Shown here piece by piece: positions 14,690 through 18,033 of a stretch of DNA of 52,763 nt. Positions within the stretch are counted from its first letter, which is position 1. The number at the start of each line of letters is the position of its first letter. The translations under genes were made by a program, and so were the position numbers. The notes beneath the pieces were generated by a model. That model was not told where the DNA came from. It was given only the letters and a program-made list of their open reading frames with translations, and ran no database searches. This DNA is from an uncultured Prochlorococcus sp. (lineage in GTDB: Bacteria; Cyanobacteriota; Cyanobacteriia; PCC-6307; Cyanobiaceae), in the NCBI GenBank assembly GCA_902626435.1, contig CACOFO010000004.1:1-52763 (forward strand). The letters are read 5' to 3'.

Positions 14690-15928
14690 TTGAGCCAGTT
14701 AAATTCCAATTGGTCGTTTGTTGATGACAGTAAGGTAACACCTAAGGGGTTTCTTTTTGCTGGGATATCTGCTGGATTAAAAGCTTCTGATAAAAAAGAT
14801 TTAGCACTAATACTCGCTCCAGAAGGAAGCATTTTTAGTGGGATGTTTACCCAATCAGTAGTTCGCGCGTCTTGTGTAGATATTTGTGAGGAAAGGATTA
14901 AAACAAATTCAGGTTTTGTACGAGCAATACTTATTAATTCTGGTCAAGCAAATGCATGTACAGGAAATCTTGGAATTCAACATTTTCAAATTGCTACATC
15001 AAAGATTGCGGAACTTTTAGGAATAAAAGAAGAAGAAGTTTTAATGTGTTCAACTGGTGTAATTGGTGTTCCAATACAAATAAATGCTTTAGTAAAAAAT
15101 TTACCGAATTTAGTAAGTGATTTAAAAAGTAATAATTTTCAAAATGCAGCAGAAGCAATTTTAACTACTGATTTGACTTTGAAAAAAGTTTTAATAGAGA
15201 CGATTATTCAAGGTAGAAAAATAAAAATAGCGGGATTTGCAAAAGGTTCAGGAATGATTTACCCGAATATGGCTACAATGCTTGCTTTTCTAACCTGTGA
15301 TGCGGGTATTCAAAAAGAAGAATGGGATAAAATGATTGCTATTGCGGTGAAAAAATCTTTTAATGCAATATCAGTTGATGGAGAGACAAGCACAAATGAT
15401 TCTTTTGTTGGAATAAATGCAGGAGAGAAAATTGAAAAAAGGTTTTTTCCAATTATCCAAAAAGGGATTGATATTGCATGTCTAAACTTGGCAAAAAATA
15501 TTGCAAGGGATGGAGAGGGAGCAAATTGTCTATTAGAAGTTTTGGTTCAAGGTGCAAAAAATACTGATGATGCAATTATGCTCGCCAAATCTATTTGTAA
15601 TTCTGCCTTAGTAAAAACCGCGATACATGGTTGTGATCCGAATTGGGGACGAATCATTTCTGCTGCAGGTAATTCTGGAGTTAAATTCAATTTTAATGAA
15701 GTTGATTTGTTTATAGGTAATACTCAGATTCTGGAAAACGGCGAGTTAAATCAATATGATCCACAAAAAGTCACAGACTATATTAAGTCCAGAATGAATG
15801 GTAGATATTTAGTTGATGATATTGTCAAAATTATGATTAATCTAAATTCGGGCGGATCGAAAGGTACAGCTTGGGGGTGTGATCTTTCTAAAAAATATGT
15901 TGAAATAAATAGCGAATACACTACCTAA
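14690..15928 (+). CDS. argJ: Bifunctional ornithine acetyltransferase / N-acetylglutamate synthase
   Basis: Transfers the acetyl group from N-acetylornithine to glutamate, recycling acetate in arginine synthesis. At 412 residues it is full length. The precursor self-cleaves before the catalytic Thr in the conserved NMATMLAF, predicted here between A195 and T196. KGSGMIYPNMATM and GCDPNWGRIISAAG are family hallmarks. The start is TTG at 14690; MSQLNSNWSF is a plausible N-terminus and no ATG fits better. The 3' end (YVEINSEYTT and stop) is echoed 1.26 kb downstream at 17161-17193. Confidence 0.95.
   Translation: MSQLNSNWSFVDDSKVTPKGFLFAGISAGLKASDKKDLALILAPEGSIFSGMFTQSVVRASCVDICEERIKTNSGFVRAILINSGQANACTGNLGIQHFQIATSKIAELLGIKEEEVLMCSTGVIGVPIQINALVKNLPNLVSDLKSNNFQNAAEAILTTDLTLKKVLIETIIQGRKIKIAGFAKGSGMIYPNMATMLAFLTCDAGIQKEEWDKMIAIAVKKSFNAISVDGETSTNDSFVGINAGEKIEKRFFPIIQKGIDIACLNLAKNIARDGEGANCLLEVLVQGAKNTDDAIMLAKSICNSALVKTAIHGCDPNWGRIISAAGNSGVKFNFNEVDLFIGNTQILENGELNQYDPQKVTDYIKSRMNGRYLVDDIVKIMINLNSGGSKGTAWGCDLSKKYVEINSEYTT
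15896..15928 (+). repeat. argJ 3' end, left copy of a direct repeat
   Basis: These 33 bp encode YVEINSEYTT plus stop, the end of argJ. A second copy at 17161-17193 matches at 26 of 33 positions by hand count. The last 21 bp (AATAGCGAATA.. to the stop) differ only at two third-codon positions, and the second copy still reads NSEYTT-stop. The arrangement resembles attL/attR at a gene 3' end. Confidence 0.65.
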
Positions 15929-15975
15929 CCCCAAACTGTGCTCATAGCAGTAGATTACAAGGATAGAAAAATCAA

Positions 15976-15995
15976 TATAACACTAATGTAACACT
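15976..15995 (+). repeat. Short repeat pair (TATAACACTAAT, TGTAACACT), left side
   Basis: TATAACACTAAT (15976-15987) is directly followed by TGTAACACT (15987-15995), about 50 nt beyond the argJ stop. The same two words recur at 17098-17120 in swapped order (TGTAACACC then TATAACACTAAT), just inside the second argJ-tail copy. Paired motifs just inside both ends of a duplicated target resemble recombinase arm sites, but this is inference. The rest of 15929-16077 holds no gene I can see. Confidence 0.4.
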
Positions 15996-16077
15996 AGATT
16001 TCCATTTGAAATATTTGTAAAGATTACGATTTAGTAGACTGCAAATTATGATGAAAATTTTTTATTAAACAATTTAT

Positions 16078-16908
16078 ATGAAAGAAGATAAATCTATTTT
16101 TTTAAGGAAAATACGCTCTTTAAATGTAAAAAATAGTGATATGTGGGTAAATGAAGCATTATTTGGTTTTTTTCATATAAAAGAATTTTGTAAAAAACTT
16201 AAAAAAAATGATAATGTTTTAGAAATTGGTTGCGGTAGTGGCATACTGCTAAATTTATTATTAGAAAAATTTAAAGATATAAATTTTGAAGGGATAGAAC
16301 CCTTTGGAGATGGATTCAGTTCTCTAACAAAATTGAACTCATTATCAAAAAAAAATGGAGTATCTATTAAAAATATTGGATATGAAGAATTATCCTATAG
16401 TCGTAAATATGATTTAATTTTTTGCGTCAATGTTTTTGAACATCTTTATGATTGGCGGAACTTTTTAGACAATATTAGTTATCTATTAACACAAGATGGA
16501 AAAATGATAGTCCTATGTCCAAATTATGGTTTTCCATATGAAAGTCATTTTAGAGTTCCTATTTTATTTAATAAAGGAATAACATCCTTAATTTTTCAAA
16601 AATATATTAGAAGTTATGAAAAGAAAAACGAATGCATTGGCTTATGGAAATCACTTAATTTTGTAAAAAAAAGAGAGGTTATTAATCATATTAAAGATTC
16701 AATTCATACCAAAAATCTAAAAATTTATGATAATTTATCAATCTTAGATTTTTTGGTTGAAAGAATCATGAATGATCGAGAATTCAGAAAAAGACAAAAA
16801 ATAGTAGGTGCAATTGCAATTTTCCTTAAAGGTTTAGGGATCTTGAATATTTTTAAACTTTTTCCAAATTTTATACCTTATATGAAATTAGAATTTTCTA
16901 AGAAATAA
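16078..16908 (+). CDS. Class I SAM-dependent methyltransferase, substrate unknown
   Basis: A 276-residue methyltransferase of the Methyltransf_11/23 type. The SAM-binding motif I is NVLEIGCGSGILLNLL (about 47-62), with an acidic motif II in NFEGIEPFGDG and the CVNVFEHLYDW stretch after strand 4. The C-terminal third (about 170-276) is Lys/Ile/Phe-rich and unlike the core. Such enzymes often methylate cell-surface sugars or lipids, or small molecules; none can be chosen here. The gene stands alone between two copies of the argJ 3' end and is very AT-rich, so it looks like an accessory insertion. Confidence 0.8.
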   Translation: MKEDKSIFLRKIRSLNVKNSDMWVNEALFGFFHIKEFCKKLKKNDNVLEIGCGSGILLNLLLEKFKDINFEGIEPFGDGFSSLTKLNSLSKKNGVSIKNIGYEELSYSRKYDLIFCVNVFEHLYDWRNFLDNISYLLTQDGKMIVLCPNYGFPYESHFRVPILFNKGITSLIFQKYIRSYEKKNECIGLWKSLNFVKKREVINHIKDSIHTKNLKIYDNLSILDFLVERIMNDREFRKRQKIVGAIAIFLKGLGILNIFKLFPNFIPYMKLEFSKK

Positions 16909-17160
16909 TCTTTGGTTTAATTATAAGTTGTGTTGACTCCTGCTTTGCCTTTTTCGGTGTATAACTTCCGAATAATTCTTTATATCTTCTTCCGTTTGAT
17001 TAATCTCTCTAAATGTAACTAACTCAAGAGGTCTTTATAACTTTTTCATACCACTACTCTAGTCATATCAGTGTGTTTTGTTAGTTGACTGAAACTTTGT
17101 AACACCTGTATAACACTAATTTTGTAGTAGTGATGCTAGTCATACCAATAGATTTGGGGT
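16909..17160. other. Non-coding stretch with short repeats and a possible decayed ORF
   Basis: No intact gene is seen. On the minus strand 16921-17034 is open for 37 codons (RPLELVTFREIN... to ...RQSRSQHNL) but has no start codon, so it may be a remnant. CTAGTCATA(T/C)CA occurs twice (17059-17070 and 17136-17147). TGTAACACC (17098-17106) and TATAACACTAAT (17109-17120) echo 15976-15995. TTTGGGGTTA at 17153 is the inverse of TAACCCCAAA at the argJ stop. The density of repeats fits the edge of an inserted segment. Confidence 0.4.
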
Positions 17161-17193
17161 TATGTATGTATCAATAGCGAATATACTACTTAA
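17161..17193 (+). repeat. Second, imperfect copy of the argJ 3' end
   Basis: Read in frame this gives Y-V-C-I-NSEYTT-stop, matching the argJ C-terminus YVEINSEYTT. Two of the seven differences are synonymous third-position changes near the stop. It lies between the accessory methyltransferase region and the membrane protein gene, whose own stop codon (17186-17188, other strand) falls inside it. There is no similarity upstream to the rest of argJ, so this is a tail fragment and not a gene duplicate. Confidence 0.65.
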
Positions 17194-17428
17194 GTTTTAG
17201 TAAATCTATTGGTAGATATTCATTTATATAAAGAAACAGTATTGTTAAAGTTCCAATTACAGAACCGATAAAACCTCCAAAAAAATTAACTAATAATCCA
17301 GATTGTCTGATTATTGTTTCTTCGTTTTTTTCTTCTTCAAAATTAGGCGAATCAACTACTTTTAAGCGCTGATTGGTTGTTGGGTCTTTAAGTTGTTGGT
17401 GTCGGATGAGGGCTTCGAAATCAGGCAT
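17186..17428 (-). CDS. Small membrane protein overlapping parA-like gene
   Basis: About 80 residues from MPDFEALIRHQQLK. The frame is open to an ATG at 17452, eight codons earlier. It has an acidic hydrophilic N-terminal half, then one or two hydrophobic segments in GLLVNFFGGFIGSVIGTL and TILFLYINEY. It overlaps the 3' end of the ParA-like gene by 67 nt in another frame on the same strand, suggesting translational coupling. I do not recognise the family. A membrane partner for the ParA ATPase is possible but inferred only from the overlap. Its stop codon sits inside the argJ-tail repeat. Confidence 0.55.
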   Translation of the reverse strand: MPDFEALIRHQQLKDPTTNQRLKVVDSPNFEEEKNEETIIRQSGLLVNFFGGFIGSVIGTLTILFLYINEYLPIDLLKLK

Positions 17429-18033
17429 GGAATTTGTGAGGCAATTGAACAATAAGCAGACCAGCCCGTCATTCGCCGGGGATCTGATCTACCTAAATCG
17501 TCTACAGCTTCAAATACAGCATTACCCGTGGCTTCTGCTTTATCAAATGCTGAAAGTAAGGGTATAAATGTATCAAAAACATATAAATCAAAATTTTCTA
17601 GAGCTGCTTTGGCTTGTTGCGCTGCTTTTTGCTGTCTAAAATCAACTTTTACTATTACTACTGCATGGTTAACTTTTAAGTTACTTAATAAATTAGATAG
17701 TTCAACAGTTAATTCAACCGATCTTGCTTTTGCAGTTGTAGGTAAGATAACTAAATCTGAACCATATGCTAAGTGTTTAAGTTCTTCTGGATCACTGCTA
17801 GCCTGGCCATCAGTTATTACAATTTCTGATGATCTTGATGCTTTAGCAGCTGAACTGACGGGGAAAACTGGAAATGGAAGATTGCCTCTTGATGCGTAAG
17901 CTAATGCAGATCTATTCTTGTCGGCATCGACGATGCAAACTTTTTTACCTTCAGAATGCCAAACACTAGCAAGGTGAATACTTGTGCAGGTCTTGGCCAC
18001 TCCCCCTTTTTGTCCGCAAACGGTAATGAACAA
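17362..18033 (-). CDS. ParA/MinD-family ATPase (orphan, short)
   Basis: A 223-residue P-loop ATPase of the ParA type. The deviant Walker A is CGQKGGVAKTCTS (signature Lys at 9, catalytic Lys at 14), followed by CIVDADKNRSALAYA (Walker A') and LVILPTTA. The family forms dynamic gradients on DNA or membranes to position cargo. There is no parB-like gene or parS cluster beside it. It is shorter than typical chromosomal ParA (about 250-270), matching the orphan ParA group that positions organelles or plasmids. The overlapping small membrane protein is the only obvious partner. The 3' part has several GC-richer codons compared with neighbours. Confidence 0.85.
   Translation of the reverse strand: MFITVCGQKGGVAKTCTSIHLASVWHSEGKKVCIVDADKNRSALAYASRGNLPFPVFPVSSAAKASRSSEIVITDGQASSDPEELKHLAYGSDLVILPTTAKARSVELTVELSNLLSNLKVNHAVVIVKVDFRQQKAAQQAKAALENFDLYVFDTFIPLLSAFDKAEATGNAVFEAVDDLGRSDPRRMTGWSAYCSIASQIPCLISKPSSDTNNLKTQQPISA

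Follow-up and report, generated by a model that had tools for sequence, protein, structure and literature searches.

Behind argJ in an uncultured Prochlorococcus sp. lies a short stretch of inserted DNA that is very probably a non-autonomous, single-gene integrative cassette, mobilised in trans by a lambda-type integrase and using argJ as a common entry site. We analysed it in a contig of 52,763 nucleotides (CACOFO010000004.1; the whole stretch is called the window below), where the unit is flanked by attL and attR sites and carries one methyltransferase gene as its cargo and no integrase gene. How single genes, above all those for exposed surface proteins, are swapped in streamlined Prochlorococcus is the open question addressed here.

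Insertion at the 3' end of argJ

In the window, the tail of argJ is present as two copies, AATAGCGAATACACTACCTAA at the end of the gene and AATAGCGAATATACTACTTAA at the far end of the unit, which differ at two synonymous sites and both read NSEYTT-stop. A preliminary description of this DNA had reported these last 21 bp correctly, as part of a 33-bp recurrence at 17161-17193. The real homology is limited to the 21 bp: aligned over 33 bp the copies are 79% identical, and the first 12 bp, which are argJ codons in the left copy and the element's right end in the right copy, are unrelated and lie outside the repeat. A degenerate 21-mer with up to three mismatches had two matches in the 52.8-kb window, whereas 100 dinucleotide shuffles gave 0.01 on average. 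Between the copies we found one gene-sized open reading frame (ORF), the methyltransferase gene, and non-coding DNA. The unit is AT-rich (GC 0.258; methyltransferase gene 0.238; argJ 0.334; window 0.313). No recombinase ORF was present in the window inside the unit or between argJ and the ParA-like ATPase gene downstream, which, with the low GC and the PF13489 match of the cargo gene, agrees with what had been described. An Rfam scan of 15900-17250 at E 0.1 gave no match.

Of 200 genomes sampled from the genus, 168 had an argJ match (the window genome among them), and we examined the DNA behind argJ in 141 of the 168. Sixty-one of these loci were empty, with one tail followed by native flank, and 80, including the window, held foreign DNA between the same flanks. 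The 30 nt after argJ differed from the native flank at no more than 9 nt in the empty loci and at 16 or more in all 80 occupied ones. All 75 occupied loci that reached the ParA-like gene regained native flank (8 mismatches or fewer) behind inserts of 142 to 9,342 bp; in 71 of them it was preceded by an argJ tail (at most 5 mismatches). A control gave one chance tail in 29 loci at 6 mismatches. In the window, the sequence 3' of the right copy is that found directly after argJ in empty-site relatives, resuming at 17194 with one mismatch in 30. The end of argJ kept NSEYTT-stop in 80 of 80 occupied and 61 of 61 empty loci.

These comparisons uphold the earlier proposal of an element that enters at a gene 3' end and rebuilds it, with a protein gene, argJ, taking the place of a tRNA, and they show that relatives do not all keep both tail copies. 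We regard a chance repeat or an unrelated duplication as practically negligible: 36 of the 61 empty sites have a native tail identical to the right copy, 0.01 matches were expected, and the empty sites themselves refute it.

The last 7 nt of the native tail, TACTTAA, were found in 57 of 61 empty loci, in 3 of 75 argJ-proximal copies and in 57 of 75 rightmost copies. Being rare next to argJ and common at the far right, they show that the new argJ end is supplied by the incoming element and that the old end is displaced. The argJ-proximal tail usually carried element-derived synonymous changes, and the displaced copy retained the native 3' half. AACTC on the left was combined with AATAG on the right at eight loci (five single-unit) and the reverse was seen at five (three single-unit); a ninth locus of the first kind, L132, was excluded from this serine-codon count because its right copy was unreadable. 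Taken together, the serine codon and the last 7 nt leave only GAATATAC (tail nt 7-14) for the exchange. Comparison of loci thus shows an 8-bp crossover window and synonymous restoration of argJ. A core of direct repeats in which crossover is limited to one short region is a lambda-type feature.

Unit ends, cargo and movement

Arrays were cut at tail copies under a 5-mismatch rule, which gave 121 units in 78 loci (borders are approximate in L061, the second unit of L057, L107, L132 and L123); L034 and L079, two of the 80 occupied loci, stop before a second tail and gave no unit. The median length was 1,623 bp, with 104 units of 2.5 kb or less. Exactly one ORF of at least 90 aa was present in 76 of the 121 units and none in 12. 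One unit was found in 46 loci, two in 24, three in five and four in three.

Exact 7-mers repeated at 11 bp were present in 58 of 115 left ends and 48 of 115 right ends, and in 1 of 115 interior stretches. Other repeat distances from 8 to 16 gave at most three each, and shuffled left ends averaged 0.6. The tandem occurred at either end of 73 of 115 units and at both ends of 33. Its words vary by family as judged by eye (TAACAC, TGACAC, AAACAC, ACCAC, TGTGAT, CTTACA), and within a unit the left and right arms resembled each other, with a mean of 12.19 of 16 compared with 11.21 after permutation (117 units; 0 of 2000 permutations as high). An end motif, TAGTGATAGCAATGGATT, trained on right ends also marked left ends (112 units, p 2.6e-14 against mid-unit); its score was 6.8 at the window's left end, compared with medians of 4.1 for left ends and -0.8 for mid-unit positions. 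The motif is perhaps a bend or accessory site. Sites for integration host factor (IHF), sought with the consensus WATCAANNNNTTR (at most one mismatch), were only weakly enriched (left 23 versus 14 of 113, right 40 versus 13 of 113), and this candidate was dropped.

Predicted arm-type sites on both sides of the core are a second lambda-type feature. The window has both, built on the same 6-bp word, and its arms and end motifs (Table 1) have the layout of a lambda-type attP. The TAACAC arm pattern occurred at 19 sites in 15 of 200 genomes, and all 19 fell within argJ inserts when positions were compared by hand; a reversed control gave 0.

We propose that a circular form of the unit would carry a lambda-type attP composed of right arms, end motif, a core like the argJ 3' end, end motif and left arms. 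A tyrosine recombinase, provided in trans by rarer integrase-bearing elements with like ends, would recombine this attP with the argJ tail (attB) inside the 8-bp window. The incoming tail would replace the argJ end synonymously, so that the gene stays intact, the native 3' half would be displaced to the far end as attR, and repeated rounds of insertion would build the arrays.

The methyltransferase unit was found directly 3' of argJ in three hosts (the window, L057 and L148), with a length of 1,263-1,265 bp and the same borders. Between the window and L148 the methyltransferase gene was 95.2% identical, the unit ends 88% and the host flank 82.3%; between the window and L057 the values were 97.1% and 93.7%. 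The difference between gene and host flank in the L148 comparison indicates horizontal transfer of the unit. On a flank tree of 135 loci, occupancy changed 44 times, compared with 44.6±3.1 for shuffled labels (242 of 500 shuffles at 44 or fewer), and occupancy is thus not in step with descent on this tree. Exchange of the region by homologous recombination could contribute to this scatter, and whole arrays may be exchanged in that way too. That cassettes arrive solely by ordinary homologous recombination of the flanking genes, leaving the tail repeat as a passive by-product, is nevertheless very improbable. Such a route does not account for a constant 8-bp junction despite unrelated cargo, for synonymous replacement of the argJ end or for arm repeats at the unit ends, and the window and L148 share a cassette despite unlike flanks.

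Cargo was found on both strands across units. One BLAST cluster comprises 49 YadA-like ORFs, each of them encoded on the minus strand; its members occur in 45 of the 121 units and at 33 of the 80 loci. The assignment is by cluster, and three of three members scanned with Pfam matched YadA_anchor. Further cargo included PEBP, DnaB_C, SRA-HNH, an outer-membrane barrel, DNA methylases, a helicase-nuclease and a glycosyltransferase. Library scans covered 60 representatives of 71 ORF clusters and one further member, the 11 omitted clusters being of 61-125 aa. No conjugation or relaxase family was among the matches listed (25 of 66 Pfam families) for these 61 representative cargo ORFs.

Three side observations concern individual cargo. 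In an alignment of 41 YadA-like proteins (L036:493-1833, L089:526-1740 and relatives) the C-terminal part was conserved and the middle variable; the Prochlorococcus YadA-like proteins are likely variable surface proteins. A protein of 297-298 aa with a DnaB helicase C-terminal domain (L148:2038-2931 and four relatives; one scanned) was cargo of five units. Relatives of the window's methyltransferase in G020, G037 and G008 (L185, L186 and L187; 75, 58 and 56% identical) lie on contigs other than that of argJ.

Table 1. Positions of the unit, its parts and its neighbours in the window
Feature	Position	Strand	Remarks
argJ, integration target, 3' end rebuilt by the element	14690..15928	+	PF01960 ArgJ, E 3.5e-128
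attL core: argJ tail whose 3' half comes from the element	15908..15928	+	crossover maps to 15914-15921 by mixed codons in occupied loci
Inserted unit (1,265 bp), from the left end through cargo and right end to the displaced argJ tail	15929..17193	.	absent in 61 empty sites
Left end-motif copy (consensus TAGTGATAGCAATGGATT)	15943..15959	+	motif trained on right ends
Left arm-type repeats TAACACTAATGTAACAC, 11-bp period	15978..15994	+	
Cargo: class I S-adenosylmethionine (SAM)-dependent methyltransferase, 276 aa	16078..16908	+	PF13489 Methyltransf_23, E 3.3e-16
Right arm-type repeats TAACACCTGTATAACAC, 11-bp period, 6-bp word as in left arm	17100..17116	+	
Right end-motif copy TAGTCATACCAATAGATT	17137..17154	+	
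attR core: displaced native argJ tail	17173..17193	+	identical to the tail in 36/61 empty sites
Native right flank: ParA-like ATPase gene	17362..18033	-	PF01656; in empty sites the argJ stop lies ~172 bp away

Source of the recombinase

A tyrosine recombinase was found in two of the 121 units, L051 (9,043 bp) and L042 (6,494 bp; on a contig of Prochlorococcus sp. AG-449-P16). A third argJ recombinase is accompanied by a serine resolvase in G068, at a locus outside the 141, and argJ recombinases were thus seen in G047, G173 and G068. An integrase PHROG was matched by two of 61 representative ORFs (best E 2.4e-20), and a profile of four recombinases gave weak matches in PDB, to an integrase (E 0.0015) and to XerA (E 0.0044); catalytic residues were judged by eye. 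Relatives of the family at E 1e-8 or better occurred in 20 of 266 genus genomes, three of them known to be at argJ.

Two of the three argJ recombinase elements, L042 and L180, carry TGTGATN5TGTGAT arms. The same pattern lies near the ends of 28 of the 121 units (L042 and 27 others, including 22 of the 45 YadA-like units), and it was found 0 times in 178,685 bp of interior sequence from 115 units. The right ends of L042 and the recombinase-less L072 were 90% identical over 90 bp, with no other unit above 60%. As far as sequence can tell, arms common to integrase-bearing and integrase-less units form the pattern of a helper and its dependants. A recombinase would act in trans for the TAACAC class of the window as well.

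Alternatively, a host core gene encoding a 389-aa tyrosine recombinase beside a hemH-like gene could act on all cassettes, as in a chromosomal integron-like system. Its product is the sole PF00589 protein detected in the window genome and seems by eye to retain the catalytic R, K, R, H and Y; matches to it (E 0.001 or better) occur in all 66 good genomes of the sample and in 175 of 200 overall. However, a gene so nearly universal makes co-occurrence uninformative, and a single host enzyme explains neither the many arm words paired within units nor the arms that cassettes share with recombinase-bearing argJ elements; we therefore hold this reading to be quite improbable. The gene (L179:7479-8645; contig C7 of the window genome, 15478-16644, minus strand) lies in a core-gene neighbourhood, and its neighbours are presumably hemH- and pyrH-like.

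Several observations weigh against cassettes that are mobilised in trans by rare integrase-bearing elements. The last tail had 6-10 mismatches in 4 of 75 occupied loci and only 79 of 121 displaced tail copies encode NSEYTT-stop, which suggests that many attR sites may be dead. The exact 11-bp tandem was missing from both ends of 42 of 115 units. The recombinases of L042 and L180 score 17.2 and 18 bits, under the Pfam cut-off of 27.1 bits that L051 passes at 28.6. A recombinase with TAACAC arms of the window's class was not found, the window genome (65% complete) had no match to the argJ recombinase family at E 1e-8, and no viral or phage relative was seen in the viral-contig and phage collections scanned.

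The altered displaced tails, the poor last tails and the 12 units without an ORF of at least 90 aa would also suit units that are remnants of once complete elements, decayed in the manner of cis-mobilisable elements (CIMEs) and immobile now. We consider this unlikely, since the methyltransferase unit has near-equal length and identical borders in three hosts and its cargo is more alike than the hosts, since unit ends are conserved across differing cargo, and since recombinase-less units are the rule. The preliminary description had left a choice between a small mobile cargo unit and a decayed one; the former is what the three hosts point to, and the latter fits less well.

In the wider recombinase family, an 8-mer tandem at 11 bp lay upstream in 7 of 14 full-length recombinase loci, and ARAGORN detected no tRNA in 19 recombinase loci with ~1.5-kb flanks. 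A possible second docking site lies ~11 kb from argJ, where recombinases of the same family were seen in G054 (L181:4844-6600), G145 (L297), G172 (L298) and G111 (L299). GTTGAAA arms with an 11-bp period are present there in G054 and G111, and the left end in G054 resembles those of argJ cassettes; the G054 recombinase lies behind a gene that is presumably flavodiiron-like. More distant recombinases (L305-L310) have 11-bp tandem repeats, e.g. TACCAGCA or CCCAAACTTT, near the presumed gene start.

Relation to known systems and other genera

CIMEs are flanked by attL and attR, lack integration genes and form tandem arrays as one element after another integrates site-specifically into the end of a target gene, according to the passages available (PMC5704250). 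The argJ units resemble them in their attL/attR flanks and, in the window unit, in the absence of recombination and transfer genes. The same passages describe CIMEs as decay products of integrative and conjugative elements (ICEs) or integrative and mobilisable elements (IMEs), whereas no ICE or IME was recognised at argJ. Also unlike CIMEs as described there, argJ units have a median of 1.6 kb, carry mostly one gene and are recombinase-less in their great majority. Islands at ssrA in Dehalococcoides are likewise tandem and bounded by copies of a gene 3' end, and 16 with and 15 without an integration module are reported (PMC3146451); they differ in their target, a tmRNA gene, and in using a serine recombinase, and the excerpts at hand mention no arm-type repeats. 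The additive flexible genomic island of Methylopumilus, another streamlined aquatic bacterium, is likewise variable, at 330 bp to 42 kb, and follows a gene 3' end that is repeated (PMC10872708). Its repeats are, however, the last 20 bp of tRNA-Lys, and the excerpted text contains no empty-site mapping, arm sites or unit structure. Addition of variable cargo again and again at one site is present at argJ, with 1 to 4 units.

Tycheposons (Hackl et al. 2023, as described in citing papers) share with argJ cassettes the Prochlorococcus host, tyrosine recombinases and variable-cargo islands. They are described as targeting tRNA genes and spanning 4-200 kb, whereas the target here is argJ. A picocyanobacterial tRNA-Phe/Cys integrase often lies near a small serine recombinase in the part of PMC10187409 available, as does the argJ recombinase in G068. 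By the features compared, the argJ unit is CIME-like and, by its target, not a tycheposon; CIMEs and additive islands are the closest known systems. It appears to work like a lambda-type integrative element reduced to att sites and cargo, an integrase of its own being absent from the window unit and present in 2 of 121 units. The literature contained no description of an argJ docking site among the matches listed, and an earlier mention may exist.

In integrons, cassettes that mostly hold a single gene are arrayed at one fixed site, and the recombinase is usually encoded elsewhere. The argJ arrays are alike in having single-gene cassettes at one site. In contrast to integrons, their core consists of a protein-gene tail of 21 bp with arm repeats on either side, cargo lies on both strands, and the integrase that marks the entry site of an integron has no counterpart in the window's DNA from argJ to the ParA-like gene; the arms imply a different chemistry. 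We give about even chances to a broader view, in which picocyanobacteria possess an integron-like cassette system on lambda-type att sites, with argJ as common entry, each arm word acting as a code for its own integrase, mostly single-gene cassettes borrowing that enzyme, and continual swapping of YadA-like adhesins and restriction/modification genes. If so, surface adhesins and restriction/modification genes would be swapped continually across the most abundant phototrophs. The mapped site, crossover window, arm code and candidate recombinases open excision, helper specificity and the vector to testing, and the natural docking site with its short cassettes could serve the engineering of these bacteria.

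The 3' end of a protein gene thus serves integrase-less cassettes of several genera as a common docking site. In other genera of the family, additional tail copies were clear in 6 of 20 argJ loci (L271 five, L272 one, L273 two, L275 three, L279 one, L284 three), which shows use of the argJ site beyond the genus; single weak candidates in L276, L281 and L288 were not counted, and the other 11 loci lacked a copy over 8.4 to 14 kb. In all, 18 copies were seen, compared with 0 to 2 in every one of 20 shuffled versions of this DNA. Two matches to the YadA-like proteins, at 33-40% identity, were present in L273, and in L284 a sequence that partly matches the argJ recombinases (27-29%) starts ~117 nt after a tail copy.

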